Assembly (NCBI GenBank): GCA_013202495.1
Contig: JABMQQ010000249.1
Coordinates: forward strand, 1 to 57,336
Length of the DNA stretch: 57,336 nucleotides
Direction: 5' to 3'
Source of the DNA: Fidelibacterota bacterium
Lineage (GTDB): Bacteria; Fidelibacterota; UBA8477; JABMPR01
Part shown: positions 38,753 to 57,336 of the stretch, in pieces
Numbering within the stretch: position 1 is the stretch's first letter
Layout of the letters: each line of letters starts with the position of its first letter
The notes under the pieces: model-generated
Database searches by the model: none
What the model saw: the letters and a program-made list of their open reading frames with translations, nothing else
Told to the model about the DNA's origin: nothing
Made by a program: the position numbers and the translations under genes

Positions 38753-38757
38753 GTTAT

Positions 38758-38786: not shown

Positions 38787-38793
38787 TGACTTT

Positions 38794-39138: not shown

Positions 39139-39157
39139 GGAAAGATTCTCTTTATAA

Positions 39158-41476: not shown

Positions 41477-41479
41477 AAT

Positions 41480-43672
41480 TTAGGCTTCTGCGTAGCTCGT
41501 AAAACCATCATCCCTAACACGTGTGTACATTCGTTTCAGCTTTTCGTAAGAGAGTGGGTACTTAATGTCGCTGTCTTCTTCCTGTTCATGGAAAGCGTCC
41601 CCGGTCTGATCCACCAGACAGAGCTGTCCAATACTCCATAAAATTTTCTCCAGTTTCTTTCGTGAACCATGAAGTTTGGGCAATAGCTTCTGCATGATTA
41701 CAGCATCAATAATTTCAGTGTCATTCATTTCACCATCAGCCAACTCAGTACACACTGAAATGAATCTATTGATCTCAGCGGCTGTTCTATAACCAAACTC
41801 GGCACCAGCCTCCTGGAGCTTACTGAAGAAGGGGATTAGAATTGCATCAAGGCTAGGGGCTGGTGGGAGCCTTGTGTTTGCTTTTGCTACAAAATCCTGC
41901 CCCATGGAGGCACCTTTTCCTTTGATGGAGTTCATATTCAAACTCTCAGGCATTTTTAAATAAGATTCCATTTCAGTCTCTTTAATACGGAATTCTAGGA
42001 CGTTTGCACGATCTAGAACTTTAGGACTGAACATATATGTGGTTTCATCAATATTCACAGTGCCAATGATAAACAAATTTGGGGGTAATGAAATTTCCGC
42101 TGGAACATCACAATCTATCCACTCATCCCCTTCAGGGTGAAGTGTAATTATTCTGTGAACAGATTCCATTGCAGATAGGAAGTCAGCGAAATAGCGCTCC
42201 ACATGAGACATATTCATTTCGTCCAAGATTAAAAAATAGGGTAGACTTGGATTTTGGGTAGCGTTAAGAATTAGATCTAAAGCGCCATTATCCGGTTTTA
42301 CATACTTACCCGAATCTAGTGCATTAGGATAACCAAGTAGTGGTTCGCGATTTGTCCAGTCAGAACCTACAGCTATCAAACAATATTGACTTGAAGATTC
42401 AGAAATCCAGATTGACAATGCTTCTGCCATTTTTGTTTTGCCAGAACCAGAAAGGCCCGTGAGAATAATAAACGGTTTCGTGAGGTGGGATGCAACATAC
42501 CGATGCAATAGAGAGAGAGGAAACCATAAGTGAGCTTTTTTTAGTGATTCACTAAATTCGTAAAGTTTTAGCGGTATTTGTTTTAGCCTAGATTCAATGA
42601 CCGCTGGCTCTTTCTCATTTGAAGATTTGAGGTCTAATGTCTTATAGAATTCAACTAATTGAGCAAGGTCATTCTCAACCTCATACGCGGAAAGGTCATT
42701 AGGTTTATAAACACGATACACTAAGGAATCTCCATATTTATAAGGTTCTTGCTTATATTCCCTTAAAAATAGTGTTGAAATTGTTTCTACGGACGAGTCT
42801 AGATGCCAAGAATTTTTGGGAGGATTCGTTGCGGAAAGTCCATATGCAAGGATTAAGATATTTTGTTTTTTATAGTATAGGAAAACAGGATAAATACCAT
42901 TTTTCACTTCTTGACCATCTCTAAAGAATCCCAGCCAAGGAACCTTAGAAAGACCCCCAGCCCCAAATCTTAGTTTGACAGTTAAGTCCAAAAACGTTTT
43001 TGGGTAATCTTTGGTAGTTTGATCTTCTGTTTTTGCTTGTTCAACAAACTTTTTGACAAAAAAGAACATCTTGTCTGGGCCAAACTTTTCCCATAATTCT
43101 TTCCCATAGCTAATAATATCTTGGTGTTTGGGCTGGTATTTGGAAATAATCCTATACATCTCACTACTAGTCAATTCCCCCTTCCCATTCTCACCATAAA
43201 ATTCTATAATTCTTACAAGCACGTCCTTCATAAATATTGGCACAATGAGCTTGGGGTTATAATGAAATGCCACTTTCCATTTAAAAACATGTCCTAAGTC
43301 TACTTTATCAATATTTTGGAACTCTCCCGATACAGCAGATTCGGCAATGTCCACAATCATCGCGCGGACGGTAAAAAAAGCTTCCTTTGCATCTGCTCCA
43401 TATCGAGTGTGCCAGGCATAAATTCCATCTGTTGAATACCCCGACCTTGAGACTTTTTTGGACGTATCCTTGCGCTTGTAGATTCCAAACTTGTAAGCTG
43501 AACCGCCCCACATACTACCAACTTTGTCTAACCTTGATTCTAGCCACCTACAAAAAGAATCGTCATCTCCAACATTTGTATATTCTTCAAGCTTCATGTT
43601 CTTGAGTCGTGCAATTGGCCAAACGTCCAAAAATTCATCCAATAATGGCCTATATTCTTTAAGTAGTGCCAT
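41480..43672 (-). CDS. McrB-like AAA+ GTPase of a type IV restriction system
   Basis: A 730-residue protein. N-terminal domain of unknown fold (1-about 210; DDDSFCRWLESRL, GGSAYKFGIYKR), then a MrcB_N/DUF3578-like domain (about 225-345; GAGGLSKVPWLGFF and YPVFLYYKKQ), then the AAA+ core (about 375-650): Walker A GLSGSGKT (406-413), Walker B ILDEMN (482-487) and sensor region TVNIDETTYMFSPKVLDRA. In McrBC this hexamer recognises modified DNA and drives cleavage with the partner nuclease, here the DUF2357 protein 3 bp downstream. Ribosome site GAGGGGG precedes ATG 43672. The target (modified DNA, or RNA as suggested for CoCoNuT relatives) cannot be read from sequence. Confidence 0.9.
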   Translation of the reverse strand: MALLKEYRPLLDEFLDVWPIARLKNMKLEEYTNVGDDDSFCRWLESRLDKVGSMWGGSAYKFGIYKRKDTSKKVSRSGYSTDGIYAWHTRYGADAKEAFFTVRAMIVDIAESAVSGEFQNIDKVDLGHVFKWKVAFHYNPKLIVPIFMKDVLVRIIEFYGENGKGELTSSEMYRIISKYQPKHQDIISYGKELWEKFGPDKMFFFVKKFVEQAKTEDQTTKDYPKTFLDLTVKLRFGAGGLSKVPWLGFFRDGQEVKNGIYPVFLYYKKQNILILAYGLSATNPPKNSWHLDSSVETISTLFLREYKQEPYKYGDSLVYRVYKPNDLSAYEVENDLAQLVEFYKTLDLKSSNEKEPAVIESRLKQIPLKLYEFSESLKKAHLWFPLSLLHRYVASHLTKPFIILTGLSGSGKTKMAEALSIWISESSSQYCLIAVGSDWTNREPLLGYPNALDSGKYVKPDNGALDLILNATQNPSLPYFLILDEMNMSHVERYFADFLSAMESVHRIITLHPEGDEWIDCDVPAEISLPPNLFIIGTVNIDETTYMFSPKVLDRANVLEFRIKETEMESYLKMPESLNMNSIKGKGASMGQDFVAKANTRLPPAPSLDAILIPFFSKLQEAGAEFGYRTAAEINRFISVCTELADGEMNDTEIIDAVIMQKLLPKLHGSRKKLEKILWSIGQLCLVDQTGDAFHEQEEDSDIKYPLSYEKLKRMYTRVRDDGFTSYAEA

Positions 43673-44010
43673 GTGCCCCCTCTTTCGATTTATTAAGAAT
43701 ATGCTTCAATTAAATTTGATATGCCCGTGTTGTGCTATTGCTAGTTGTGGCGTTCTTCTGATATTGTATCTACCATTTGTATGTCTCGGAATGTAAGTAT
43801 TAATGATTTTTTTCAAACTCCTCAGATACGATTGAGGTAGTATGGTCTTTAGTTTGAAATTGATCTAAGACAGTGTTCATTTTCGAACCAAAATCTATTG
43901 GGGATACTATTCTTTTGGGTCGGTTTGAATTACTTCCTAGATTATCAAACTCATTTTATTGAAATATCTATGATCATTTAGCACGTCATTATCCTGAATG
44001 GGGAGTTTTT
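43673..44010. other. 338-bp divergent intergenic region, no gene seen
   Basis: A/T-rich DNA between the McrB-like gene (leftward) and the metallophosphoesterase (rightward). It must hold both promoters, but I see no strong hexamer pair, palindrome or reading frame. Confidence 0.5.
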
Positions 44011-44925
44011 ATGAAATTACGTCTGAAGCCTTTAAGCATTTTTCTTGCTGTTATTCTATTGGGGTGTCAGTCTGAATCCAAATCAAAACCATTGTTTCAG
44101 TTCGCCTTTCTCACAGATATCCATGTTCAACCTGAACGAGATGCTGTGGAGGGGTTTCGTAAGGCAATTGACCATACCAACCGTCTTAAACCTGAATTTG
44201 TCATTACCGGGGGCGACCTCATCATGGATGCTCTGAGTCAAAGCAAGGGACGTTCAGATTCGCTCTACCAGATCTATGCTGAATTGAGCCAGGGGTTCGA
44301 CATGCCTGTCTATAACACCATGGGGAATCATGAGGTTTTTGGTCTGTATAAAGACAGTGGCATTGCACCTGATCATCCAGAGTATGGGAAACAGATGTAT
44401 CTGAACCATATGGGAATGGAGCAACCCTATTATTCTTTTGATCATAAGGGCTGGCATTTCGTGATCCTGGATGCCATTGGCTTTACTGAGGATCGCCGTT
44501 ACATCGGTGAGATCGATTCAATTCAGCTTGAGTGGTTGCGGGAAGACCTTAAGACCCTTGATAAAGAAACTCCCCTGGTACTCTCAACTCACATTCCCCT
44601 GGTTTCAGTGGTACCCCAATTGGTGGGAGGAGGCCAGGCCAATGCCGGTGCAGGATATCTGGTTACCAATACTGATGAACTGATGAAGATCGTCAAACCC
44701 TATAATCTGAAATTGGTCTTACAGGGTCATCTACACCATGTTGAAGATGTGTATTTTAATGCTACTCACTTTGTGACAGGTGGAGCGGTATGTGCGAGAT
44801 GGTGGCTTGGTCCACAAGAAGGCATGGAGGAGGGCTTCATGATGTTTGAGGTCTTTCCAGATAGTATCAGCTGGAGTTACATCGATTATGGCTGGGAAGT
44901 CATCCAGGAGCAAATTGACGTATAG
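44011..44925 (+). CDS. calcineurin-like metallophosphoesterase lipoprotein
   Basis: A 304-residue secreted lipoprotein (lipobox ILLGC, Cys19). It has all metallophosphoesterase motifs: D-x-H in FLTDIHVQPE (35-37), GGD (about 68-70), GNHE (about 108-111), His in LSTHIPL and the C-terminal GHLHH. Two metal ions should hydrolyse an extracytoplasmic phosphomonoester or diester; the domain resembles the acid phosphatase/PhoD-like lipoproteins of the FCB group, exact substrate unknown. GGGGAG lies 6 nt before the ATG. It is the only plus-strand gene within the 37.5-46.7 kb defence region and may be chromosomal background rather than part of it. Confidence 0.9.
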   Translation: MKLRLKPLSIFLAVILLGCQSESKSKPLFQFAFLTDIHVQPERDAVEGFRKAIDHTNRLKPEFVITGGDLIMDALSQSKGRSDSLYQIYAELSQGFDMPVYNTMGNHEVFGLYKDSGIAPDHPEYGKQMYLNHMGMEQPYYSFDHKGWHFVILDAIGFTEDRRYIGEIDSIQLEWLREDLKTLDKETPLVLSTHIPLVSVVPQLVGGGQANAGAGYLVTNTDELMKIVKPYNLKLVLQGHLHHVEDVYFNATHFVTGGAVCARWWLGPQEGMEEGFMMFEVFPDSISWSYIDYGWEVIQEQIDV

Positions 44926-44970
44926 ATTCTTGAACCAATTGATTGACTATGAACTGGTAACAAAGATAAT

Positions 44971-45912
44971 TTAGGATGATAGTCTTATTAGGTTTTGTTT
45001 TTTCCATTGATAGGCAGGTGATTTAGAGATTCTCTCTGCTAGTTCACTCCTAACGAGTAATTCAAGATCTATCTCTCCAGTAGCGTCAAATTCTTTGAAA
45101 CTATCTAATTCTGTCTGATTCAGATTGGTTATTGAGTTAATAACTTTTTTTGCCCCATCCTTCATTGTCTGCATTTCTGGATGATCACCTCGAATTAACA
45201 TAGGCTGTAGATTCCGTTGCACTTCTCCCGGGGTGACTTGATCCCATTTTGGCGGTAAAAGATCTGCATGAGACTCACTGGCTGTCAACAATGCATACAG
45301 AAATATCTCATGTAGCATATTCTGATCTAGTTCAACTCCCAATTCACTGATTCTATACAAATCATAAAGATCCCGAGCAGTATATCTGGTTAGAAATGCT
45401 CTGGTTTTCCCTGCAAGTAATTCGATAAGGTTGAGGGTTGGGAAGGATAGTTTTTCGCCCCACTTATTGAATTCAAGTATGTCTATATCTAATATTGTGA
45501 TTCGTTCGATAAAGTTAAGATCAAGCTTTAATGCGTCTGGACCTCCATGAAGAGTTATATAGCCCAGCTTGTACTGAAGAAGTGCATGGGACTCTCTTGT
45601 TTGCTCCACATTGTATTCTGTAGAAAACACTTTCGGAATAATTGACTCAATGTTCCTACGTGCTACTAAAGCTTGGTCTCTTTCTAATTCACCCATGTAA
45701 TTGAGGTCAACATCAACCGATAACCTTGGAATTTCTAGATGAAAAAAATTCAGGGCCGTACCTCCTTTTAGTACAAACTGGTCTTTCAATAGCGGGTGAG
45801 AATTAAATACTCTCAAAACATCAAGGAGCCTTAAAGCCTTTTCCAGCGGACCGAAATGAAATTGGGTTTGGTCTGCTAGCTCATCAAGTTCGTGCTTGGT
45901 ATATTCTAACAT
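44971..45912 (-). CDS. abiEii: AbiEii nucleotidyltransferase toxin
   Basis: A 313-residue toxin of the type IV AbiE toxin-antitoxin and abortive-infection family. Conserved motifs: FVLKGGTALNFF (47ff), the acidic SVDVDLNY, a third acidic segment LKLDLNFIER and the C-terminal KTRAFLTRYTARDLYDLY (K..RDxxD). AbiEii family members are GTP-binding nucleotidyltransferases that stop growth until phage replication is limited. It lies 2 bp after the antitoxin stop and should be cotranscribed with it. Its 313 residues fit the family's usual size, and no motif is missing. Confidence 0.92.
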   Translation of the reverse strand: MLEYTKHELDELADQTQFHFGPLEKALRLLDVLRVFNSHPLLKDQFVLKGGTALNFFHLEIPRLSVDVDLNYMGELERDQALVARRNIESIIPKVFSTEYNVEQTRESHALLQYKLGYITLHGGPDALKLDLNFIERITILDIDILEFNKWGEKLSFPTLNLIELLAGKTRAFLTRYTARDLYDLYRISELGVELDQNMLHEIFLYALLTASESHADLLPPKWDQVTPGEVQRNLQPMLIRGDHPEMQTMKDGAKKVINSITNLNQTELDSFKEFDATGEIDLELLVRSELAERISKSPAYQWKKQNLIRLSS

Positions 45913-45914
45913 AA

Positions 45915-46697
45915 TTAATAATCCCTACGGTTTCTGAGCGTTTTAGGAATCATCAAGTTCCACCGAGAATCGCGGTAATTACCACTTCGCTTTGAGGATA
46001 TTAAGTAAACCGGGTCCAGTGGTCTTTTCTTTTGCATACGGTTTAGCTTTTCAGGCCTAACAAACCATTGGTCTTGTTTTTGTTCAAGCAACCACCCGAG
46101 CCTCATCTCCATGCTAATTGATGTATAGTAAGAATCTACGTATTGCATAAGTTTGCTTAGATCAAGCCAGCTAACCCCTTCTAAGCTCCTTAAAAACTCA
46201 TCTATACCCATATATCGATCTGAGTGTTTTAGTCCTTCTAATACAGTTCTTTCCGAATCCAAGACTTGGACTTTAACATCATCAACCACCTTTTTTGTCA
46301 CCCCAAAATCAAGATTTTCTCGAAAATATTTATACGTTTTCCCTTGATAGTTGAAACTACGTGGAACTTTTTTGTTTTTTAAACTCACAGCTATCTGTAT
46401 TTGAGATGACTCGCTGTACGCTTCCCCTCGAATAGCCATGGCAGAATGAAAAGCTATTACTGCATCATTCTCTGACCGTGATGCTACCAACCAAGGAGAG
46501 ATTGAGATCTCCCTTTTTCCCCACTCATTTGGCTGCCGCAAATAGAGCAGTCCAGGTTTTATGCGTTGAGCTTTACCGCTAGCCACTAACCATTTTATTG
46601 AGCCGTTAGTCTTTTCTACATTTCCAGAGAAAAAGCGTATGATTTCTTTACGGCGTACAACTTTATATCGCTTGAATTCCTCATATACTTCTATCAT
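45915..46697 (-). CDS. abiEi: AbiEi antitoxin / autorepressor
   Basis: A 260-residue antitoxin of the AbiEi family. An N-terminal winged helix-turn-helix (about 1-50; RYKVVRRKEIIRFFSG, GSIKWLVASGKAQRIKPGLLYL) binds DNA and the C-terminal part (DSERTVLEGLKHSDRYMGIDEF) carries antitoxin activity. AbiEi proteins repress their own operon by binding inverted repeats upstream of the start. Here a perfect 11-bp inverted repeat lies at 46771-46798, with a matching half-site at 46713-46729 close to the start. The toxin gene follows 2 bp downstream. Confidence 0.9.
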   Translation of the reverse strand: MIEVYEEFKRYKVVRRKEIIRFFSGNVEKTNGSIKWLVASGKAQRIKPGLLYLRQPNEWGKREISISPWLVASRSENDAVIAFHSAMAIRGEAYSESSQIQIAVSLKNKKVPRSFNYQGKTYKYFRENLDFGVTKKVVDDVKVQVLDSERTVLEGLKHSDRYMGIDEFLRSLEGVSWLDLSKLMQYVDSYYTSISMEMRLGWLLEQKQDQWFVRPEKLNRMQKKRPLDPVYLISSKRSGNYRDSRWNLMIPKTLRNRRDY

Positions 46698-46712
46698 TGT
46701 ATAACATTCCCC

Positions 46713-46798
46713 TTTTTAGGTAATAATCACATCCCAATATAGCTTGTATCATACATGGATGCATATGATCATTTTAGGTAATTATTGTTACCTAAAAT
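46713..46798. promoter_or_regulatory. AbiEi operator: inverted repeat plus half-site
   Basis: ATTTTAGGTAA (46771-46781) and TTACCTAAAAT (46788-46798) are exact complements around 6 bp; TTTTTAGGTAAT recurs at 46713-46724 as a direct half-site 15 bp before the abiEi ATG. This arrangement is the kind AbiEi is known to bind cooperatively. Confidence 0.75.
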
Positions 46799-46861
46799 TT
46801 ACATTGTCATACAATACTTCAGTAATTAACAGGATTAACAGTCAATTTTTCTTCCCAAATG

Positions 46862-46908
46862 GGGATAATATGCGATTATTTAGGGCGATAATCGGGATGA
46901 TATGCGAA
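46862..46908. repeat. 15-bp direct repeat
   Basis: GGGATAATATGCGAT (46862-46876) and GGGATGATATGCGAA (46894-46908) match at 13 of 15 bases, 32 bp apart. It lies in the 399-bp gap between the AbiE promoter and the next gene's stop, which otherwise holds a terminator; no gene is seen. Confidence 0.5.
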
Positions 46909-47042
46909 TAAGGATGTATTCATCTTTGTGTGTATCGTTCAGATTTATTCTAAATTTCGTAATTATTCTGATGACAAGATTCGATACAGTTAACGTACAT
47001 TATGTCGAGATCTCCCATGTTGCTGTGGAAACCTTAATACAA

Positions 47043-47074
47043 TGCAAGCCCCCCAGTTTATTGGAGGGCTTGCA
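47043..47074 (-). terminator. intrinsic terminator of the large T9SS protein gene
   Basis: A hairpin with a 13-bp stem (one position pairs G-U on the minus strand) and a 6-base loop, 22 bp after the stop at 47097. Stem core GCAAGCCC against GGGCTTGC. It has no long T run. Confidence 0.7.
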
Positions 47075-47096
47075 ATCTATGAATGTAGATTCTTCT

Positions 47097-50048
47097 CTAC
47101 TTCAAGTAAATCATCTTAATGGTTTTTGAGTAATCTCCAGTAGTGATACGGGCAAAGTACATACCAGTACTTACCTGATTTCCTGCCTCATTGGTACCCT
47201 CCCATCGGACTTGATACCAACCAGCAGCCTTGCTTTCGCGCACTAACCCTTTTATTCGACGACCTGAAGAATCATAGATATCCAGAGATATCTCACTTTG
47301 TTCTGGAATACCATATCGAATTGTTGTTGTCGGGTTGAAAGGATTCGGGAATGCATCCTGCAACTCATACTGCTCAGGTATATTAACCAAATCTACATCA
47401 ACAACGGTGAGAGGCGTGGATCCTCCTCCGTCACAGTCCGTTCCAAAAACTGAAGCATAGCTCATGACCAGGGTAACCGTAAATTGCTCATCCTGGCTAT
47501 AGCGGTATGTTGGTGTTGCTTCTGTTGAGCTTCCAGAATTATCACCAAAATCCCAAGCATAGGTCAGCTCATGTCCAGCCATCCAGCTGGCATCTGCAAT
47601 AAAAGTATACTCATATCCATCAATGCTGATAAGATTTGCAGCAATGCTATTGATCACAATCGGTGTAACCCCCAAACCCTCAACTGCAGAAGAAGCGGAG
47701 GACAAGCCGCAGTCATTCTCAGCTTTCACATAATAACTGTGTGAACCGCTGACTATATCCGAGAAAGAGGGGGTAGTCACATCATTGATATAACTCCCAT
47801 CTCTGAATAGTTGGTAATTGGTTGCCCCTTCAACCAGATCCCATGTGAGAGTGATTCCTTCACACTCATTTACGCTGGCAGTTACATTCACTGGCGCTCC
47901 AGGCGCTGAACCTGATACGCCTGTATCACTATTCGAATTCCCAGACGTCCCACACGTATTTTCAGCCTTCACGTGGTATGTATGGGAGCCACTTGTCGCA
48001 TCAGGGAATTGTGTTGCCGATATTGTAGCCACCAATGCATTGTCCTTGAAGACTTGATACTGTTCAGCTCCTGCTGCTGCATTCCATTCTACCACAATTT
48101 GATCACATCCCGTGTCGCTGGCCACTAATCCTGTTGGGGTATCCGGTGATTGAAGACCTGACCCATTGTCAGAAATTGAGTTGTCAGATTCACCACACTG
48201 GTTTACTGAACGGAAATGATAGGTGTGCTCCCCAAAAATGTAATCAACATAAGGTGAGGTTCCATCCTCAGCCAGATATTCTCCATCTCTATAAATATAG
48301 TAGGAGGAGGCACCATCCATCTCTGAATAACTAATGGTTATCTGTCCGCACTCATCATTGCTGGCAGCCACCACAGACGGTGAATCGGGAGCTGAAAGTG
48401 CAATTCCAATATCTTCAGACGAGCTTCCTGACTCCCCACAATCATTGATGGCCTTTACATAATATGAATGTGAGCCGTCGGTTCCATCGATGTAAGGAGG
48501 CGAGCCATCTTCGGCAAGATAAGCTCCATCTCTATAAATATAGTAGGAGGAGGCAGATCCCGAGGTGTTCCATAAAATGGTTATCTGACCACACTCATCC
48601 GTGCTGGCTGAGACACCGGTCGGGGTCGAGGGTAGGTCGCAGGCTGCATCAGTATCAAAATAAATATCCCAGTCTGAACTTGATCCGCCAACCCAGGCCA
48701 CCATGGCCTGATTCTCATCATCAGCACACACAGCTACAAAATCATCATTGCTTGCATTGGATGCATCCGCGATAGTAGTTGCACTACTCCAACTAGACCC
48801 CGTGTCAGAATTACGGTACCTTATTGATCCGGCTTCATAAAATGCAACATGAAAGTTGTCTCCTGCTGCTGCAAAAGGCATAGCATATATATCGGCTAAC
48901 CACTCCATAGTGGTGCTTGACTCGAGTGATTGATTTGTAACCCAGGTGCTTCCGTCTGACGTCCGTGCATAATAGATGTCATAATCACTTGGGGAATAGG
49001 CATAGGTGTAAAATACTACGGCTTTGTCATCGATATCTGAAACAGCAATCCGGGGATACATATAATCGTTGGTTGATCCGGAAATCAGGATTGGTGAAGC
49101 CCATCCCAAACTCGGAGTACCATAGGCTGAATTAGATTTTATAAGCTTTATTTTCCCTGGTATGTCATCATCCTGATATGCGATATATAAATTACCGTTC
49201 CCCCAGCCGATATCCACATTCTGTTTAATTCCATCTAGAATGAATGTCGGCTCTGAAAAGCTTGCTCCATAATCGGTAGATCTGGAATACCAAATGTCAT
49301 CTTGAAATAAATCTTCTTCTACCCAACAGACATAGATATAATACAGGTTGTCAGTATCCAGTGCTACTTGGGGTCGAATATTATCATTCCCTACCCCTCC
49401 CTCTAGAGTATTAAAAACATAGTTACCACTGTCAAAATTTTTCACATATACCTTTGCTGCACCAGTGGAAGTATAATAACTAACAACGATCGTATTCTGA
49501 TTGCCATTACCGATAGCAATATCAGGGAAAAAAGCATCATAACTGCTGCTGCCAACCGTCCAACCTGGCTCCCAAGTCTCTCCATCGTCAGTACTATATT
49601 TGATATGTATTTTAACTTCAGAATAGCTATAGTCTTCATAAGCGACATATATGTCACCATTTTCTCGTCTAGCCATAGAAATGGCTTTTTGGTTGTCGGC
49701 ACCATTGTCAATCATTCCATCATCATCCCAACGCAAGCTCTCGCTGGTCACAATAATTTCCTCATCTTCATTGGTTTGGATCCACCTGTAATCATGACGG
49801 TCAGGAGTGATAACTGGACTATGTTCTATTAAGCCTGATAATCTTGATTCGATTCTTCTTGTTCCTGTCTCATCACCCATTTTTTTTAAGACCGCGAGTT
49901 CTTCACTTTCAAGCTGAATGGCTTCAGATGACTGAAAAACCTCAAAAGATACAGTTCCGGGCTCAAGAGCCTGTTTTTCTGTTCCCATGAGAGCTAAATT
50001 CAAAAACAGACATACAACGATTACAATTAATAGTGTCGTTTTCCGCAT
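47097..50048 (-). CDS. large type IX-secreted protein with beta-propeller and fibronectin-III-like repeats
   Basis: A 983-residue secreted protein. A signal peptide (1-21) is followed by a BNR/sialidase-like beta-propeller (about 85-470; repeated Asp-box-like segments such as YSTDDGETWE, YSRSTDYGASFSEP and YARTSDGSTW) but no visible sialidase Arg triad. Then four fibronectin-III-like repeats (about 475-800), each with a CGQI or CDQI start and NxCG end that can form a disulfide, a PKD-like domain (about 805-890; YAWDFGDNSGSSTEATPTYRY) and a type IX sorting domain (about 895-983; DAFPNPFNPTTTIRYGIPE, final KTIKMIYLK). It should be displayed on the cell surface and bind glycans or proteins. The second and third repeats share near-identical DNA, so they arose by recent duplication. 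Confidence 0.88.
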   Translation of the reverse strand: MRKTTLLIVIVVCLFLNLALMGTEKQALEPGTVSFEVFQSSEAIQLESEELAVLKKMGDETGTRRIESRLSGLIEHSPVITPDRHDYRWIQTNEDEEIIVTSESLRWDDDGMIDNGADNQKAISMARRENGDIYVAYEDYSYSEVKIHIKYSTDDGETWEPGWTVGSSSYDAFFPDIAIGNGNQNTIVVSYYTSTGAAKVYVKNFDSGNYVFNTLEGGVGNDNIRPQVALDTDNLYYIYVCWVEEDLFQDDIWYSRSTDYGASFSEPTFILDGIKQNVDIGWGNGNLYIAYQDDDIPGKIKLIKSNSAYGTPSLGWASPILISGSTNDYMYPRIAVSDIDDKAVVFYTYAYSPSDYDIYYARTSDGSTWVTNQSLESSTTMEWLADIYAMPFAAAGDNFHVAFYEAGSIRYRNSDTGSSWSSATTIADASNASNDDFVAVCADDENQAMVAWVGGSSSDWDIYFDTDAACDLPSTPTGVSASTDECGQITILWNTSGSASSYYIYRDGAYLAEDGSPPYIDGTDGSHSYYVKAINDCGESGSSSEDIGIALSAPDSPSVVAASNDECGQITISYSEMDGASSYYIYRDGEYLAEDGTSPYVDYIFGEHTYHFRSVNQCGESDNSISDNGSGLQSPDTPTGLVASDTGCDQIVVEWNAAAGAEQYQVFKDNALVATISATQFPDATSGSHTYHVKAENTCGTSGNSNSDTGVSGSAPGAPVNVTASVNECEGITLTWDLVEGATNYQLFRDGSYINDVTTPSFSDIVSGSHSYYVKAENDCGLSSASSAVEGLGVTPIVINSIAANLISIDGYEYTFIADASWMAGHELTYAWDFGDNSGSSTEATPTYRYSQDEQFTVTLVMSYASVFGTDCDGGGSTPLTVVDVDLVNIPEQYELQDAFPNPFNPTTTIRYGIPEQSEISLDIYDSSGRRIKGLVRESKAAGWYQVRWEGTNEAGNQVSTGMYFARITTGDYSKTIKMIYLK
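48281..48312. repeat. 32-bp exact repeat, copy 1, inside the fibronectin repeats
   Basis: Identical to 48524-48555. It starts CTCCATCTCTATAAATA and ends GGAGGAGGCA. The two copies lie 243 bp apart, one fibronectin-like repeat unit, and encode the SSYYIYRDGEYLAEDG core on the minus strand. Confidence 0.9.
48524..48555. repeat. 32-bp exact repeat, copy 2
   Basis: Second copy of the repeat at 48281-48312. Identity of 32 bases between protein repeats that otherwise differ indicates recent duplication or gene conversion. Confidence 0.9.
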
Positions 50049-50150
50049 TGTACTTCCTCCTTAGTTTGCAATAAAGATCACTTACTGTTCTGCCTAGGAG
50101 CACGGAGGAATTTTTCAGAATTTCTGATCAAAGCGTTGCTTGATTGTGAA

Positions 50151-50179
50151 AGCCAACCTGAGAAAAGGTGAGGTTGGCT
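50151..50179 (-). terminator. hairpin ending the Lon-like operon
   Basis: AGCCAACCT (50151-50159) and AGGTTGGCT (50171-50179) pair perfectly around an 11-base loop. It lies 36 bp after the stop at 50215, between that operon and the promoter region of the T9SS cargo gene at 50048. Confidence 0.7.
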
Positions 50180-50214
50180 GGTGTTATGAGTGGTGTTTCT
50201 TCCTGGTGGTGTAG

Positions 50215-52467
50215 TTAATTAATCCTGAACGGTTTTAACTGCCATCCCGATCCATTCCAGTAATTAATCTGTTTGATGGAATCTAAATATGAATGATTCG
50301 GGAAATCTTGAAATATTGAATGACCTATCAGTTTTTCATATTCTGCATAGAAGTTGTCACCCAATGCGACACGCTTCATGTTCAGGTTATAATCAAAATA
50401 ATAGTATAGTCCGTTATCCCGGAAACCATCACCGGTTCTAACCAGTATATTACCATTGTTATTGGGGTCTAAACCTTTTGGGGCTTGATGGACAGAAGAG
50501 CCTGGTATTTGCATAAAATGAGTGCCCTTGAGGAGTAAATATTGTCGCAAACCTCGAGGGTTTTCAAAATCTAAACGATAATGGGCGCGGCTCTGTGGAG
50601 ATACTGCGGAAAAGTTTCCGGGATCAAACACTGCTAACCCAGCTCGTTTATACTCATTATTGTACAAAGTAACGAGAAGATCCAGCGTATCATTCTGGTA
50701 CAGATCTAGGACATCAATATCGATAAAATGACCTGCATTGTAAAACCATGCTAATCTCTCACCCTCCGAGTTCAAAACAGTCAACACAGATGGGAACCAG
50801 GGTGTGTTGTTAATCATAGCGATAATTTCTTTCGAGCCATCCCCATTAATGTCAGCGAGTTTTATTCCCCCCACATTGAAGGTGGAGTAGATTGAGTCAT
50901 TGATCACCAGGGAATCTGGAAAAACGCTCCAGCTATTTACTCCATCTCCATCAAGAAATTGAATGCTCCCGGATAGATGCTCGAAATGTTGTTCTAATCC
51001 GAGAATAACATCCTTTTTTCCATCTGCGTTGATATCCTCAATCAATAATGTTTGATTTGTTCGATGATCAGCAGTGTTACTAATCTGTAAATGCTTGAGG
51101 TCAATGGGGACCCCAAAATCATGCTCCCAGCGTTTCAATCCTAATTCATCAACAGCATATATGCGAGTTCCAGAGGCTTTGACCCCTTCAACGTTGTATG
51201 GAAAAATGTACCAGATAAAGTAAATGGAAAGCATAGTTAAAATCAGCAGGATGACTCTGTGGTATATGTTATTTTGCTTCAATTGCCGCCCGAACCACGA
51301 TTGCCAACTGATAAGCTTGTGTTCAACTATAGCACTGTTTTCTTTTACCTGCTTGAGATCATCCACCGACACGACCTCATCAAGGATATAAGCTTGGTCT
51401 TCGAATGACTCTGATGAGAACCTTGTGTTGTAGTGTGGTGCAACCAAAACGGTAAATGGAGAGTAGCGAAATGCATTTAGTTTTGCAGGAAAAGTTTGTT
51501 TTGAGACGCCTCGCACTTTTCCGTCCAGTCCCAAGCCCCCCGTGTAAACCACGTGATTTCTTAAACAATGCTGCTTTCGCTGCCCAGAGAGTTGTTCTAA
51601 TTGAGCTAGGATTACCAGCGCCATTCCTAGTCCAAATGATTCTCCCGTGTAAAAGAATTCTCTCTGGGGAAAACCAAAACTAATTTGCACTCCTGGTCGC
51701 TTCTTATCACCGAACCTCAGTGCTGCTTTTGCTGCCAATAGTGCATCTAAGGCTTGATCATAAAGCTGATCACCTGGTTGTATTGGATGATTGTTAAAAA
51801 GTAGTATGTCCGCTGATGTGTTCTGGTCCAGAATATTTACTTCAACGCCAAGAGGTTGAATCGTTGCCTCGGGCAGGGCTGCTTCCGGAGTGGTAAAAGT
51901 TTGTTCAACCAGTGGAATCCAGACGGCTTCTCGAGAACACCCCGCGATCCTGTTGATCCAATCCTTATGAGTTAATTCAAATAGCTCCACTTGTGGCTTG
52001 TCTGCTTTTTTTAGAAGCTCCACCAGCCTGGCGAGTTGTTCCAGGGGAGCTAAACTTGCATCAAGCTTCCTGGGAATTGCGAGAGATAGGAGTTCAAACA
52101 CCTCTGCATACATCCCAGCATAACACAGGTGCCTAATGCGAGTTTGTTGAACCAATTCAAGGGTGTTTTCAAACTCTTGCTCCCGCAAATGCTTGATTCC
52201 AGCTCTGGATATTTCCATGCCAATTGTCTGGATGGCTTCCAGGTATGAAGGACTGCGGTATGCCAGGTTAGATTCTGACAAAAGAGAAAAAAAATTTTCA
52301 TAGCTCTCTTGGTAATACGATAAAAAAACCGCCTGTTCAGGTTGGGCTTGCAGGGACTGATAAAAATTTATAAACAGACTTAGCTGAGACCGCTCACTGA
52401 GTCCATTATTTATTTGATAGGAAAGATCCTGGTACCGGCGTTCAATTTGATTTAAGGTTAATACCAT
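50215..52467 (-). CDS. membrane Lon-like (S16) protein with FG-GAP-like domain, paralogue 2
   Basis: A 750-residue single-pass membrane protein. It has no signal peptide. Residues 1-about 195 are helical; about 200-380 match the Lon protease domain: TGESFGLGMALVILAQL (Ser277 at the Lon nucleophile), VVYTGGLGLDGKVRG (Lon TGEITLRGxVLP) and FPAKLNAF (Lys329 at the Lon KxLLAA lysine), then FTVLVAPHYN. There is no AAA+ module. A membrane helix follows at 403-424. The rest faces outward and has FG-GAP/VCBS-type Ca sites (EDINADGKKDV, ADINGDGSKEI). It starts 22 bp after the stop of its paralogue and is last in the four-gene operon. A role in signal-gated proteolysis is inference; the S16 domain might also be inactive. 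Confidence 0.85.
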   Translation of the reverse strand: MVLTLNQIERRYQDLSYQINNGLSERSQLSLFINFYQSLQAQPEQAVFLSYYQESYENFFSLLSESNLAYRSPSYLEAIQTIGMEISRAGIKHLREQEFENTLELVQQTRIRHLCYAGMYAEVFELLSLAIPRKLDASLAPLEQLARLVELLKKADKPQVELFELTHKDWINRIAGCSREAVWIPLVEQTFTTPEAALPEATIQPLGVEVNILDQNTSADILLFNNHPIQPGDQLYDQALDALLAAKAALRFGDKKRPGVQISFGFPQREFFYTGESFGLGMALVILAQLEQLSGQRKQHCLRNHVVYTGGLGLDGKVRGVSKQTFPAKLNAFRYSPFTVLVAPHYNTRFSSESFEDQAYILDEVVSVDDLKQVKENSAIVEHKLISWQSWFGRQLKQNNIYHRVILLILTMLSIYFIWYIFPYNVEGVKASGTRIYAVDELGLKRWEHDFGVPIDLKHLQISNTADHRTNQTLLIEDINADGKKDVILGLEQHFEHLSGSIQFLDGDGVNSWSVFPDSLVINDSIYSTFNVGGIKLADINGDGSKEIIAMINNTPWFPSVLTVLNSEGERLAWFYNAGHFIDIDVLDLYQNDTLDLLVTLYNNEYKRAGLAVFDPGNFSAVSPQSRAHYRLDFENPRGLRQYLLLKGTHFMQIPGSSVHQAPKGLDPNNNGNILVRTGDGFRDNGLYYYFDYNLNMKRVALGDNFYAEYEKLIGHSIFQDFPNHSYLDSIKQINYWNGSGWQLKPFRIN

Positions 52468-52489
52468 CTCAGGTTCTTTTTACGAGTTG

Positions 52490-54730
52490 CTATTGGCTTA
52501 TGGAATTATACGGCAACCAGCCCATTCCATCCCAAGTCTGAATCTTATTTAGGGATTCATAAATATATTCTCTTGTATAATCGTCGTAAATATGGGTCCC
52601 GTGAAAATTAAGATAATTATCAACCAGATTGTCTGTCAGCTCAGCTCCTATATAGTTGAGCTTTTGGTCAAATTGATAGATCACATAATAGCCCATGGCT
52701 TTATTCCTTACCGTGACGTTGAATTCTGAACCTGTGATATCAATATCGTGAATGGAAAAATTGCGACTTTTCTTTGCAAGATCAATCCAGCTTCCTTTGG
52801 GGAACCTTAAATAGCTGAGATGCTCAGCCTCTGGTGAGTCTGCGTGTGTGTATGCATCTTTTTCTTGAGGACTGTGTCCCGACACCTTAGACAACTCCAA
52901 CACACCTAAAACAGCATCTCTTGTCTCATTGTTTGTACCTCCGAAGACCAGGTCTAAGAGACCATCTCCTGAAACATCAATAAAATTAATATGGTTTACA
53001 TGACCAGCATGAAAATAGGTGCTAATGATCGTCCCTGTTTTAGAAATCAGCATGACTTTGGAGGGATACCAGGGGTGATGATTAAACACAGCTAAGATCT
53101 GTGCCCCCTGGCTTACTCCGGGAATGGGTTCAAGCTTACTGATGATATAAGGTGGCGGATAAGCCTCATCTCCAAATTGGCTTGCTGCCCCGCAATCTGT
53201 GTCCCATAGTATCTTCCCTTGAGAACTCAAACAGATCAAGTGCCCACCATATTCCTCGTTTTGACTAACTAAAGAATAGATGATTTCATTTAAGCCATCC
53301 TTGTCCAGATCTTTGACAATCGTCTTCACCCGATCTTCATTTATTTCCGATTCTAGACTTTTAAGCTGTTCAGTGGGGAAAACCTGATGCGTCCATAATA
53401 TTTTCTCGCGGCTATTGGTGGCGGATAAAATGTTATCCTTCAAACTGATGGTTACAGGGTTAAGATCCCTCGAGAAAAACCATAGGCTCCACCCCACAGC
53501 AAGAGTTAGCACGAGACTAATTAGTACATGAAATATCTGACTTTGCCGTAAGTGTGCCCGTGACCAACTCTGGAAACTGATGCGTTTTCGGCGGCAAACC
53601 CGATCATCTTTGAGTATCGCTTTGAATCCTGGCGCAGGAAGAGCACCTTTCCCTTGTGAGTGGTGTTCTGAGGCTTGGATGACACTCTTGTTAACCTGTG
53701 GATATACGAGAGTCTCAAAAGGGGAATTTTTAAAAGCTTCCTGTTTCGCAGGCAAGCTTGCTTCAGAAATGCCTCTGATCTGACCATTAATGTCCACTCC
53801 CCCAGTAATCACTGCATTTTTAAGCAGCCGGTGTTGGGTCCTCTGTATGGTCACTTTCTCCATCTGGGCCAGCACAACCATACTCATACCGAGACCAAAG
53901 GATTCACCCGTATAGAAATATTCTTTACTGGGGAAACCGAACATGACTCTGAAAAATGGTGTTTTCCTGCCTGGCTTGGACCTGAGTTGTTTCTTGGCCA
54001 AGGCGACAGCATCCAGAGCTTGATAAAAAATCAGATCACCACTGTCCAGAGGGTGATTATTAAAGAAGATGAGATCCTGATCAGCCTCCTTTCTTCGGAG
54101 TTCCACTTCCACTTCAAGAGGCTGGATGGTAGCTGAGATGGTGTTCTTCTCAGTACCTGTCAGGTCACCCTCAACGAGGGGAATCCATACTTGAGAATCT
54201 GAGGCACCCAGAACCAGTTCTCTCCATTCCTGATGAATATCGTGTAGAAGACTTATGTTTGGATGTTCTTCATCTTTGTAGTGGTTCAATATCATTTCTA
54301 GTTGTGTGCGGGAATCACTATTCTCTGACCCTGCCTGGTCATATTGGGGCAATTCAAGATGAGAAATAGCTTCTGCTATTCTGCCAGTATACAGATAGGC
54401 GCAAATCAAGGACCGCTCAAGACAGGCTATTCGTTCTGCATACTTGGGATCAGAGATTTCTCTGATCCCTGCTAATTTCATATTGTCCAATTGGGTCCGC
54501 AGATCTAGCAGGAACTCTACAGATCTGAATCTAAGTGTCTCAGGCCGAAGACATTCTAGGAAGGTTTCAAAAAGCTCCTGATAATAAGATAAGAAGACTG
54601 GTGCTGGGCCGTTGGCATTAATGATCGTGAGGAATTTTGAAATTTGACCTAGTGTCTCTCCGGGCGTCCAGTATCCCTTTACCCCTGCAAGTAGGTCTTG
54701 AAATTCCTGCTCTATCTGTTTTGGCTTAAT
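52490..54730 (-). CDS. membrane Lon-like (S16) protein with FG-GAP-like domain, paralogue 1, apparent ATT start
   Basis: A 746-residue paralogue of the next gene with the same order: helical N-terminus, S16 domain (TGESFGLGMSMVVLAQM with Ser277; ITGGVDINGQIRGI; LPAKQEAF with Lys329), a membrane helix at about 399-420, and an extracytoplasmic part with VKDLDKDGLNEI and DVSGDGLLDL sites. The longest frame with a usual start is TTG 54490, but the open frame continues upstream to ATT 54730 and encodes KPKQIEQEF, PAPVFLSYYQELFETFLECL, homologous to QIERRYQDL and QAVFLSYYQESYENFF of the paralogue. No ATG, GTG or TTG exists between the in-frame TGA and TTG 54490; AGGA lies 7 nt before the ATT. With the ATT start both Ser and Lys have the same numbers as in the paralogue. 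Confidence 0.83.
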   Translation of the reverse strand: MKPKQIEQEFQDLLAGVKGYWTPGETLGQISKFLTIINANGPAPVFLSYYQELFETFLECLRPETLRFRSVEFLLDLRTQLDNMKLAGIREISDPKYAERIACLERSLICAYLYTGRIAEAISHLELPQYDQAGSENSDSRTQLEMILNHYKDEEHPNISLLHDIHQEWRELVLGASDSQVWIPLVEGDLTGTEKNTISATIQPLEVEVELRRKEADQDLIFFNNHPLDSGDLIFYQALDAVALAKKQLRSKPGRKTPFFRVMFGFPSKEYFYTGESFGLGMSMVVLAQMEKVTIQRTQHRLLKNAVITGGVDINGQIRGISEASLPAKQEAFKNSPFETLVYPQVNKSVIQASEHHSQGKGALPAPGFKAILKDDRVCRRKRISFQSWSRAHLRQSQIFHVLISLVLTLAVGWSLWFFSRDLNPVTISLKDNILSATNSREKILWTHQVFPTEQLKSLESEINEDRVKTIVKDLDKDGLNEIIYSLVSQNEEYGGHLICLSSQGKILWDTDCGAASQFGDEAYPPPYIISKLEPIPGVSQGAQILAVFNHHPWYPSKVMLISKTGTIISTYFHAGHVNHINFIDVSGDGLLDLVFGGTNNETRDAVLGVLELSKVSGHSPQEKDAYTHADSPEAEHLSYLRFPKGSWIDLAKKSRNFSIHDIDITGSEFNVTVRNKAMGYYVIYQFDQKLNYIGAELTDNLVDNYLNFHGTHIYDDYTREYIYESLNKIQTWDGMGWLPYNSISQ

Positions 54731-54739
54731 ATGTCAATC

Positions 54740-55633
54740 CTAACCAAAGATCTTGACACGAAGAGCTGGAGATTCGCTTACCTCATGAAATACAGCTAGA
54801 CCTTTTTTTACTGGCTCAAGAATAGCTTGGCGGCCCTCCTTGCTGGCTGTGATCTGAATGGTTTGTTGCTGTCGCGATTTCTGTATTTTCTCTAGGCGTA
54901 CTTTTATGCAGTAATTTTCACCTTCAGGGCTAAACTCGATATATAGCTTATCATTTGAGGCATTTTTGATCTGAATCTCACCTTTTCCGATGAATTCTTT
55001 CCAATCTTGAGTCAACGCTGTCAGATCAAAGCTTGTGCGGGGGGTTTTAATAACAAGTTTTAATTCCTCAAGCTTGGGGAGATCAAGCTGGCCAATATCG
55101 ATTCGACCCATTTTGTCGGTCATTAGTTCTACGCCTAAAGGTTCGATGGATACTAGTACATTTTGATATTTTTCCACATCGTTTGAGATGATGTGCAAGA
55201 CCGTGTCTCGGGTGTCTGAGTTCTTGGTCAACCGTACCATTATTTCACCATCTTCAGTACTAAGGACACCTTTGCTCAGATAACTCTGATTGACAGGCGC
55301 TGAGGAGCTGTCCGCAGCCCTCGTCATTCGAGGTCTTAGCTCTGATTGGGTTGTGCGCTGATCATTCCAAAGGGTCACTGTCCAATAAAAGGGATTGATC
55401 GATTCATCAGACAAGGAGCTGATTGCTTTCGTGATGCTCTCCTCAGAGAGAGTAGGGAAGATCTCAGCAGCTTCTGAATACTGTGAAAATAGACTGTCAT
55501 AGCGTTCCTGGCAAAAAGCGCATTCTGCCAAATGTCTTGTAATGTCTTTCGGAATCACTCTCTTGTTCAATTTTGCCAGGACGGCGTCCTCCAAAACATC
55601 TATATCAATACAAAGATTCATAGCTCTATTCAT
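54740..55633 (-). CDS. zf-HC2 (anti-sigma-like) zinc-finger protein
   Basis: A 297-residue protein. The zf-HC2 motif HLAECAFC (His34, Cys38, Cys41) resembles the zinc-binding anti-sigma domain of ECF anti-sigma factors. There is no membrane helix, so it appears soluble. The rest is beta-rich and has VSIEPLGVELMTDKMGRIDIG, similar in wording to IQPLGVEV in the Lon-like proteins. The last part (about 190-297) forms another beta domain. It overlaps the preceding gene by 8 bp (the ATG lies within the previous reading frame's end) and ends 9 bp before the ATT start of the Lon-like paralogue, so the operon is tightly coupled. It could be the substrate or partner of the Lon-like proteins; that is inference. 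Confidence 0.75.
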   Translation of the reverse strand: MNRAMNLCIDIDVLEDAVLAKLNKRVIPKDITRHLAECAFCQERYDSLFSQYSEAAEIFPTLSEESITKAISSLSDESINPFYWTVTLWNDQRTTQSELRPRMTRAADSSSAPVNQSYLSKGVLSTEDGEIMVRLTKNSDTRDTVLHIISNDVEKYQNVLVSIEPLGVELMTDKMGRIDIGQLDLPKLEELKLVIKTPRTSFDLTALTQDWKEFIGKGEIQIKNASNDKLYIEFSPEGENYCIKVRLEKIQKSRQQQTIQITASKEGRQAILEPVKKGLAVFHEVSESPALRVKIFG

Positions 55634-56729
55634 CTTCTACCACCATTGACTGATTCTTCAGAAATTCCTTTGAAAATTGCTCTTGCAGATATCCTCGGCC
55701 AAGCCTGATCAAGTATTCGAGTATCCCACGAACCTGTTTCCATTTAACTTCGCTCAATTCTTTTAACTCTGACTCATCTCTGTATATAGTCAGCATTTGA
55801 GACGAGCCATCCATGACTAGATCAAATAGGTATTGATCAAGCACTTGCCCAACTACTTGTGCCTCCTGTTCATCAAGCTTGTCTTTTTTTACATAACGCT
55901 CAGCCAACTCATTCCGAACCCATTTCTGAACTAAATGAAGAAATCGTGTTTGAGTCGCCTCAGGCATTTTTTCAAAATCATCATCCTTCCCATGAATCCG
56001 TCCAATCTGTTCGTCTAGGATCGTTTCACGCAAACCAAGGATGTGTTTTAATTGATAAAATAGTTCCAATCGATCAATAAAATGGCGGACACTTTCATCA
56101 TTCCGCAATTGTTCCAAATAATCATGTACGATCCCTGGGATGCCGTTATGCTGAGCTTTTGCCTGGTTTAAGTAATGCACACTAAGATCCCATTGAATCT
56201 CTGGTAAATGTGGGGAAAGATCAGCAGGGAAGTCACAAGCGGTTTCACCTTCCCAAAGAAAGAAATATTTGCTATCACCATAGGCGACAAGCTTGATTGC
56301 TGAATCACGTTCGGCTGCGAGGGTTAGATTTCTATATATTTTTGCCCCGTTTGGATCAATTTGGGCTCTTTGTTTGACAGTGGCTTGGTAGGTATGTGAC
56401 ACCACGAGACGTCGCGTCATTTTCAGCGCGTTAACATGACTTTCGCTGATCATAGATTTCAAAGGGATAAAATAATTCTGAAGCTGAGTAAGGTAATTTG
56501 CCTCATCTCTAGCAAATAATTCTGCGATAGTGTCCAAGGCAAGTTTATGGAACTCTGAAATATTAACATTCGTAACATCAAAGCTGATCTTGCCAGAGCG
56601 ACTCAGATTAATCAAATAGGCGGAAGATAAAGAGGCATAATAGCGAACGAGTTGGCTGAGCTCAGATTCAGATACTGGTTTATCCAATAATTTTAAGGTC
56701 AACTGCTGTAGCTGCAGACTATCCAACAT
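55626..56729 (-). CDS. hypothetical cytoplasmic protein, first gene of Lon-like operon
   Basis: About 367 residues from ATG 56729; an upstream in-frame TTG at 56747 adds six residues. It has no signal peptide, membrane helix or known motif that I can name. Residues about 15-95 are helical (VRYYASLSSAYLINL...FHKLALDTIAELFARDEANYLTQLQNYF) and faintly resemble sigma-70 region 2, which, with the zf-HC2 gene overlapping its end, suggests a very divergent sigma factor; a region 4 helix-turn-helix is not clear (the C-terminus EVKWKQVRGILEYLIRLGRGYLQ is a candidate). This function is weak inference. The gene heads the four-gene operon and follows a region with repeated TGGCCA motifs. Confidence 0.65.
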   Translation of the reverse strand: MLDSLQLQQLTLKLLDKPVSESELSQLVRYYASLSSAYLINLSRSGKISFDVTNVNISEFHKLALDTIAELFARDEANYLTQLQNYFIPLKSMISESHVNALKMTRRLVVSHTYQATVKQRAQIDPNGAKIYRNLTLAAERDSAIKLVAYGDSKYFFLWEGETACDFPADLSPHLPEIQWDLSVHYLNQAKAQHNGIPGIVHDYLEQLRNDESVRHFIDRLELFYQLKHILGLRETILDEQIGRIHGKDDDFEKMPEATQTRFLHLVQKWVRNELAERYVKKDKLDEQEAQVVGQVLDQYLFDLVMDGSSQMLTIYRDESELKELSEVKWKQVRGILEYLIRLGRGYLQEQFSKEFLKNQSMVVEDE

Positions 56730-56882
56730 GCTCAGATTCTCAGTCAATTTTTAGTAATCGGTTGGGTAGAAATCTAATATGACCAGAAAAGAGCACAATG
56801 CTATTCTCAATAATCGCAACCTGGAACCCGATTCACTTGTCTCCGTCAAGAAACCTAAAAATTGATAACACCTGCAATTATT

Positions 56883-56959
56883 AAATGGCCAACCCTCCGT
56901 GGCCAATTAGTGGCTTTTAATGACTTTTGTTGGCCATTTATGGCTAAAAGGCTTGGCCA
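56883..56959. promoter_or_regulatory. cluster of four TGGCCA sites with 11-bp inverted repeat
   Basis: TGGCCA occurs at 56886, 56900, 56930 and 56954 within 74 bp. AAATGGCCAAC (56883-56893) and GTTGGCCATTT (56929-56939) are exact complements. The cluster lies 150-230 bp before the Lon-like operon start and could be its operator. Confidence 0.5.
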
Positions 56960-57029
56960 TAGATCAAAATTATATGGGTTATAGCAAAAATAAAGAAACC
57001 CTTAAGTATTTGTTGCTTAAGGGCTTATC

Positions 57030-57049
57030 TTTGTACACCGCCCAGGACT
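57030..57049. repeat. 20-bp tRNA-end repeat, copy 1
   Basis: TTTGTACACCGCCCAGGACT is identical to 57225-57244, where it forms the 3' end of a tRNA-Lys-like sequence. After this copy the tRNA similarity stops. It fits a duplicated attachment-site core. Confidence 0.75.
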
Positions 57050-57200
57050 GGCTGAACCTCCGCCTACGGCTACGTTCGCCTCTACTGCGCTCGTGAACTC
57101 GCTCCGTGGTCGAACCTTTGCAATATTGAATTGGCGTTATTTTGATTGTGGTGTGCCATCACCTCAACGAGGTCCTCCCCCAATGACAATTACAAAAAAA

Positions 57201-57227
57201 GCCACCCCGATGGGATGGCCTTTTTTT
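57201..57227. terminator. intrinsic terminator
   Basis: GCCACCCC and GGGATGGC pair around GAT with one mismatch, followed by seven T on the plus strand and preceded by seven A. It therefore works on both strands and would end minus-strand transcription after the tRNA-like sequence. Confidence 0.8.
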
Positions 57228-57228
57228 G

Positions 57229-57275
57229 TACACCGCCCAGGACTTGAACCAGGAACCAATTGATTAAGAGTCGAT
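57229..57275 (-). pseudogene. 3' half of a tRNA-Lys(CTT), remnant
   Basis: On the minus strand the anticodon loop CTCTTAA (57270-57264, anticodon CTT), the TCAAT stem half, a T-arm with GGTTCAAGTCC and the acceptor strand GCGGTGT with discriminator A match the second half of tRNA-Lys. The T stem has one T-T mismatch and the anticodon stem one C-A mismatch. The 61 bp upstream do not contain a D arm or the matching acceptor strand ACACCGC, so the 5' half is missing. It is probably a scar of an integration event. Confidence 0.6.
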
Positions 57276-57336
57276 GAGTCAAAATTGTTTTCTAGCCAGT
57301 TTCATTTTCGTTCGTCATCTGCGCAAAGGCTAACTC

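Follow-up and report, generated by a model that had tools for sequence, protein, structure and literature searches.

Four linked minus-strand genes, hel, zf, lonA and lonB, on the 57,336-nt contig JABMQQ010000249.1 (the window, which is the whole contig, from a metagenome-assembled genome of the little-known, marine Neomarinimicrobiota lineage) may encode a ligand-gated transmembrane proteolysis switch, in which a propeller would sense, a Lon domain would cut zf and hel would be freed; we give this reading an even chance of being right. The four genes had been proposed as an operon from the letters of the window alone (the original prediction), and all were found, with the starts of hel and of the second Lon paralogue (lonA) corrected. 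lonA and lonB were described there as tandem paralogues, and are 31% identical.

Lon-propeller proteins: fold, dyad and topology

An AlphaFold2 model of lonB (mean pLDDT 84.2, pTM 0.55) was compared with the PDB using Foldseek, and all 50 matches listed were Lon proteases (probability 1.00, TM-score by target up to 0.72); the C-terminal part of the model is strand-rich and was read as a beta-propeller. Pfam matches on the 18 rows of alignment A3 were all weak, with Lon_C in 7/18 (best E 0.0016) and ChlI in 5, counts that include one non-member row (L042:12523-14703). That row had been tried as a Lon member, turned out to be a LamG-type protein, and was removed from the 23-member profile A5, which in the PDB matched both Lon chains (E 6.6e-5) and propeller lyases (E 1.9e-9, PDB 4cag). 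In many genomes A5 also matched, across the catalytic stretch, frames of about 800 amino acids (aa), mostly at about 1e-5 to 1e-8, and these were taken to be canonical Lon. Using HHalign, comparison with the genome's own Lon gave 57.5%, pairing Ser277 with the Ser of GPSAG and Lys329 with its Lys, two more Lon-fold proteins of the genome gave 24.7% and 20.0%, and unrelated window proteins (7/7) gave 0.5% or less. The Lon-type domain originally placed in the 200-380 region was confirmed by profile (PDB, HHalign) and modelled structure (AlphaFold2, Foldseek) as a Lon (S16) fold with a Ser-Lys dyad, with predicted peptidase activity.

The dyad, which lies in a GxSxG..TG...K context and had been aligned with that of Lon in both paralogues, is invariant in every readable row: with both window proteins counted, Ser was kept in 35/35 and Lys in 34/34 readable sequences (one ends before the Lys). 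This strict conservation among members 18-37% identical to lonB argues against a catalytically silent Lon domain serving as a signal-transducing scaffold, an alternative that we regard as barely credible, although catalysis is here a prediction from sequence and motor-less YlbL, in the published excerpt used, was inactive in vitro without its membrane part (PMC6051672).

No AAA+ motor was matched by Pfam in the window proteins, nor among the families listed (25 of 27) for the 18 A3 rows, and the N-terminal part was modelled as a short helical domain, in keeping with the motor-less architecture first described. A SAVED domain was likewise absent from the families listed for the window proteins and the A3 rows, and the sensor position is taken by the propeller. 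Behind the Lon domain, a hydrophobic segment (mean hydropathy of at least 1.7) with a net positive N side was present in 20/23 A5 members, with weaker segments in L031 (1.45) and L038 (1.31) and an incomplete sequence in L044, and in a second phylum, introduced below, such a segment followed the Lon domain in 10/12 proteins (L199 is incomplete). Because the membrane segment follows the Lon domain and its N side is positively charged, the Lon domain is predicted to lie inside and the propeller outside, and the single membrane helix of the original prediction agrees with both model and hydropathy. FG-GAP_3 was matched in 13/18 A3 rows at E up to 1, with both window proteins under the Pfam cut-off; Pfam, the PDB profile match and the strand pattern of the model agree in pointing to an FG-GAP-like C-terminal beta-propeller with Ca-type sites, as had been suggested for the outward domain. 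In a tree, lonA clusters with Lon genes from close relatives and lonB is a sister on a long branch; one other genome (G005) has its own tandem pair.

The Lon-propeller proteins were compared with known architectures. Canonical LonA/LonB differ in carrying the AAA+ ATPase motor that the cassette proteins lack. SepM is a membrane PDZ-Lon protein. YlbL is described, in the excerpt used, as an AAA+-less Lon domain with one membrane anchor and a Ser/Lys dyad (PMC6051672). Both have PDZ in place of the propeller. The site of YlbL action is probably outside the cell, whereas the cassette Lon domain is predicted inside. With FG-GAP and polysaccharide lyase family 11 propellers the cassette propeller shares DxDxDGxxD/E-type loops and the 4cag profile match, and it differs from the lyases in being part of a membrane protease. 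In the excerpted part of a five-family survey FG-GAP is named with trypsin and not with Lon (PMC2605481), and the library searched yielded no literature on a combination of FG-GAP or propeller, Lon and anti-sigma or zf-HC2.

Gene order and the middle protein

A scan of named genomes with the Lon protein gave 8 loci, all in Candidatus Neomarinimicrobiota. Among 245 Neomarinimicrobiota genomes, hel was found in 19, a strong Lon-propeller match (E <1e-50) in 20, and both in 18, the three unpaired genomes having hel or Lon-propeller copies at contig ends; elsewhere in the phylum the best Lon-propeller match was 9.4e-9 or weaker, and these proteins resemble ordinary Lon or FG-GAP proteins. After removal of L051 and L052 (weak, FG-GAP only) and L096 (weak partial hel) from the count, the order hel-zf-Lon was present in 23 of the 30 Neomarinimicrobiota loci, window included, and the remaining 7 were cut by contig ends. 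The 23 include one locus with three inserted genes (L043), one with hel in two pieces (L037), one that retains just a propeller piece of the Lon protein (L047), and four with the Lon gene off the contig (L044, L045, L049, L050).

Outside Neomarinimicrobiota, hel was found in 1 (G289) of 392 genomes searched. Within the phylum of G289, called the second phylum here, hel was present in 62/82 genomes and a Lon-propeller match at E <1e-30 in 12/82, and 14 loci, chosen nearly all by Lon match, comprised 9 with the full trio, 3 cut by contig ends and two others (L167 and L202, see below), with partial Lon-propeller matches (G434, G455, G419, G439, G425:C706) kept outside the count. Locus counts are not independent, owing to kinship. 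The claim of a conserved cassette held for the gene order, which is kept in two phyla, and failed for the tandem Lon pair, since two Lon genes occur solely in the window and L039 among the 23 intact Neomarinimicrobiota loci. No relative was found in viral contigs, and viral spread was rejected.

A zf-family gene adjoined hel in 18/21 second-phylum hel loci, and hel-zf also occurs without Lon in this phylum. This distribution suggests that hel and zf form the core pair, with the Lon sensor as an added input, and Lon-free hel-zf fits a regulator/inhibitor pair to which such an input was added. An LpxK cluster lay within five genes in 14/21 of these hel loci, and typing of one of them (L155) gave lpxB, lpxK and a regulator of the NtrC type; this placement among lipid A genes hints at an envelope-related role. 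In L155 (1552-12671) and, similarly, in L137, L149, L151, L153 and L160, hel-zf lies amid lpxB, lpxK, DUF4388 response regulators and the NtrC-type regulator, with the order conserved.

For the middle protein, alignment A7 (17 rows from two phyla, picked among finger-bearing zf proteins) showed as invariant just C8, H34, C38 and C41, the C..HxxxCxxC ligands, which we take to be the ligand set of the ZAS type, and R134 of the beta domain. The window's zf itself gave no Pfam match to zf-HC2 at E up to 1, PF13490 matched 5/17 aligned relatives (best E 1.5e-5), and RsiW, an anti-sigma factor, matched best in the PDB (E 0.023 with alignment A2, 0.0065 with A7); the zf-HC2, anti-sigma-like identity first assigned to it is borne out by these relatives, the ligands and the RsiW match. 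No strong membrane span was seen in the zf proteins (50/50 below 1.65 mean hydropathy, window 1.11), so zf could meet the cytoplasmic Lon domain. Domain counts at E <0.05 gave, for 33 Lon-linked zf proteins, ZAS in 27, beta1 in 33 and beta2 in 25, and for 17 Lon-free proteins, ZAS in 16, beta1 in 7 and beta2 in 0, with L197 (zf in two open reading frames, ORFs) and the zf-less loci L159, L164 and L167 omitted; all training rows of the beta1 and beta2 models were Lon-linked and from Neomarinimicrobiota, none from the second phylum, so that detection is favoured among such proteins. Within the second phylum alone, beta2 was detected in 6/9 Lon-linked vs 0/17 Lon-free proteins (one-sided Fisher 0.0004, kinship ignored), and protein lengths did not overlap (267-294 aa Lon-linked vs 88-240 aa Lon-free). 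By these counts the presence of the C-terminal beta2 domain tends to follow that of the Lon sensor, and a module for docking or cleavage would be expected to behave in this way. For a LAAD-like motif before beta1, the idea of a cleavage site was dropped: A2 has a near-invariant Ala107, but the place varies in Lon-free proteins.

Other substrates for the Lon domain were considered, namely secreted or membrane cargo, the protein itself or misfolded envelope proteins, with hel and zf just controlling operon expression. In 5/22 loci the gene that follows the last Lon gene has a type IX tail, identified by motif, vs 11/327 other ORFs of these stretches (kinship uncorrected), which favours this alternative, as does the excerpted precedent of YlbL, an AAA+-less membrane Lon acting on a membrane protein (PMC6051672). 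We judge it distinctly unlikely, with the Lon domain predicted to be cytoplasmic, apart from secreted cargo, and the cargo gene unconserved, whereas zf precedes Lon in uncut loci except the remnant-like L202. A downstream cargo gene was also rejected as a core member, as downstream genes differ between loci.

An anti-phage or conflict system with proteolytic activation, like Craspase or CalpL, is a still poorer fit that we rate as improbable. AbiEi/AbiEii and further PADLOC candidates lie nearby in the window (37545-46697), and AbiEi/ii also lies downstream in L039, but PADLOC gave nothing in the window cassette at E up to 1 bar one weak match to hel (E 0.011), neighbours typed in other loci are ordinary (PADLOC was not run on most loci), viral contigs hold no relatives, and an outward propeller would be odd as a sensor of intracellular phage.

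hel and the proposed switch

In its model (mean pLDDT 80.3, pTM 0.42) hel is helical and includes a short hairpin, which suits the unknown helical protein originally described. Foldseek found nothing significant for it; SigA and SigmaS ranked 6th and 9th at probability 0.16 and E near 2, and this 0.16 was the highest probability among the 50 matches listed. In sigma/anti-sigma operons the regulator gene is followed by the ZAS gene, the order also seen here. That order, the RsiW match of zf and the presence of SigA and SigmaS among the nine top-ranked matches favour the view that hel is a sigma factor that has diverged strongly and that zf is a genuine anti-sigma factor of the ZAS type, which would make the cassette a membrane counterpart of CalpL/CalpT/CalpS. 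We consider this unlikely. When 44 hel proteins were compared by HHalign with 28 extracytoplasmic function (ECF) sigma factors and 3 longer ones from the lineage, the 8 comparisons gave 0.1-0.6%, vs 92% for a control of ECF against the longer set (an eased control, as those 3 were chosen for ECF-profile similarity), and sigma families of Pfam and NCBIfam were not matched in 16 and 23 hel members. hel as a sigma factor was thereby rejected at the sequence level, and it is called here a regulator-like protein, not detectably sigma.

Under the proteolysis switch, the outward propeller, with its calcium-type loops, would read an envelope or external signal, which would cross one membrane helix to the cytoplasmic Lon-type Ser-Lys protease that lacks an ATP motor. 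zf would normally hold hel through its ZAS zinc-finger region and, docked via its C-terminal beta domain, would be cleaved by the Lon domain of its operon partner, upon which hel would be freed to act as a gene regulator; neighbouring secreted type IX cargo genes may be among its targets. Cleavage of zf to release a regulator, as originally modelled, is helped by the extra domain seen in most Lon-linked and no Lon-free zf proteins.

Several results weigh against the switch. The zinc finger is missing in 6/33 Lon-linked zf proteins, all of one clade (L039, L041, L042, L043 twice, L093), and the hel family has no convincing Pfam, NCBIfam or PDB-sequence relative; the finger-less clade and the want of detectable hel homology weaken the zf-cleavage step. 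The low sigma-profile scores of hel count here as well, and a search upstream of 21 hel genes gave no common promoter-like motif above shuffles. beta2 was undetected in 8/33 Lon-linked proteins (L040, one of L043, L090, L091, L093, L166, L195, L198). In HHalign, a RadA-like protein of the genome with a Lon fold reached just 0.4%, the strongest hydrophobic segment of L198 is in the N-terminal part and not behind the Lon domain, and the second-phylum loci L167 and L202 are remnants or lack partners.

The proposed logic resembles that of CRISPR CalpL/T/S and of RsiW-type anti-sigma proteolysis, with different parts. zf resembles RsiW, which recalls RseA/RsiW proteolysis (DegS, RseP); RseA/RsiW-type inhibitors span the membrane, whereas zf has no strong span and the protease of the cassette is itself the predicted transmembrane sensor. 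RseA/RsiW proteolysis is mentioned in the excerpted parts of two reports (PMC11417357, PMC10028731). One of them describes, as excerpted, the type III CRISPR set of the Lon protease CalpL, the anti-sigma factor CalpT and the ECF sigma factor CalpS, in which CalpL combines Lon with a sensor domain and cleaves the anti-sigma-type partner, and the regulator is thought to be freed (PMC11417357). The likeness is a sensor-coupled Lon with an anti-sigma-type protein and a regulator in one unit, known here from the gene set, with cleavage presumed; CalpL senses via SAVED binding cA4, whereas the cassette would sense via an outward propeller across a membrane helix, and CalpS is an ECF sigma factor whereas hel gives no sigma match. 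In Craspase (Csx29-Csx30-CASP-sigma), by the excerpt used, a protease cuts the inhibitor of a regulator (PMC10028731), and the same chain from protease to inhibitor to regulator is supposed for the cassette; Craspase differs in being an RNA-guided CHAT protease. No CRISPR-like repeat array was found in 44000-57336 (only the window locus was scanned), and CRISPR association of the cassette was rejected on that scan.

Gene starts, neighbouring features and meaning

Coordinates are collected in the table. Homologues of hel begin at ATG 56729 (367 aa) and not at TTG 56747, and ATG 56729 is the probable true start. zf overlaps hel by 8 nt if its first ATG is taken, and zf homologues align with ATG 55621. 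The lonA frame is open from ATT 54730, which has an AGGA 7 nt before it, and the paralogue lonB can be aligned across the stretch downstream of that ATT, so TTG 54490 is an unlikely start. ATT would be a rare initiation codon.

Table. Features of the cassette and of the gene downstream of it (window coordinates)
Feature	Position	Strand	Description
hel	55626..56747	minus	unknown helical protein, 373 aa as listed; first gene of cassette; proposed regulator
zf	54740..55633	minus	ZAS/zf-HC2 domain and two beta domains, 297 aa as listed; proposed hel inhibitor and Lon substrate
zf zinc ligands C8, H34, C38, C41	55511..55612	minus	invariant in 17/17 A7 rows
zf beta1 domain	55037..55330	minus	residues 102-199; in 33/33 Lon-linked middle proteins
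zf beta2 domain	54743..55027	minus	residues 203-297; seen solely in Lon-linked proteins
lonA	52490..54730	minus	motor-less Lon, membrane helix and beta-propeller, 746 aa; probable ATT start
lonB	50215..52467	minus	architecture like lonA, 750 aa; long-branched tandem paralogue
lonB N-terminal helical domain	51946..52467	minus	residues 1-174; AlphaFold2 model
lonB Lon (S16) protease domain	51313..51936	minus	residues 178-385; profiles, model, Foldseek and HHalign
lonB Ser277 codon (catalytic, predicted)	51637..51639	minus	pairs with Ser of the genome's canonical Lon
lonB Lys329 codon (catalytic, predicted)	51481..51483	minus	pairs with Lys of the genome's canonical Lon
lonB membrane helix	51205..51270	minus	residues 400-421; model and hydropathy
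lonB beta-propeller	50248..51186	minus	residues 428-740; DxDxDGxxD/E-type loops at 478-486 and 539-547
downstream gene	47097..50048	minus	983-aa secreted protein; PKD, BNR-like and type IX secretion tail; gap to lonB 166 bp

The downstream gene is a possible target or operon partner of the cassette, outside the conserved core. Loci with a type IX tail after the last Lon gene are the window (47097-50048), L030, L031, L039 and L048. Elsewhere in the window, 16690-21255 encodes a 1521-aa protein with a peptidase C25 domain, that of the gingipain family, in line with type IX secretion in the lineage. A defence-like island at 37545-46697 holds a PDC-M21A/B pair, a PDC-M26A/PD-T4-1-like protein, a DUF2357-PDDEXK_7 protein and an AbiEi/AbiEii pair. 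Near the contig end, a 28-nt repeat is present in two copies (57022-57049 and 57217-57244, 89% alike), whose 17-nt core has 8 copies in the genome (at most 1 mismatch), two of them at the very start (first 27 bases) of other contigs; we presume a likeness to a tRNA 3' half, and ARAGORN and Rfam gave nothing for the repeat as a tRNA or other RNA.

More broadly, and only as a tentative and rather doubtful proposal, hel would found a new class of bacterial gene regulators, non-sigma and kept in check by an inhibitor of the ZAS type in two phyla or more, and Lon-propellers would be receptor-proteases of a new, single-pass class, releasing hel on an external signal by cytoplasmic proteolysis, and not by phosphorylation or intramembrane cutting. 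If true, sensor, membrane span and protease would be combined in one compact receptor-protease, encoded beside its substrate and the regulator that it frees, and the logic of CRISPR CalpL, in which a sensor-coupled Lon cuts an anti-factor, would also serve reading of the cell surface. The cassette would also offer a handle on hel, a regulator-like family that the libraries searched do not recognise and that is present in most of the sampled genomes of one phylum.

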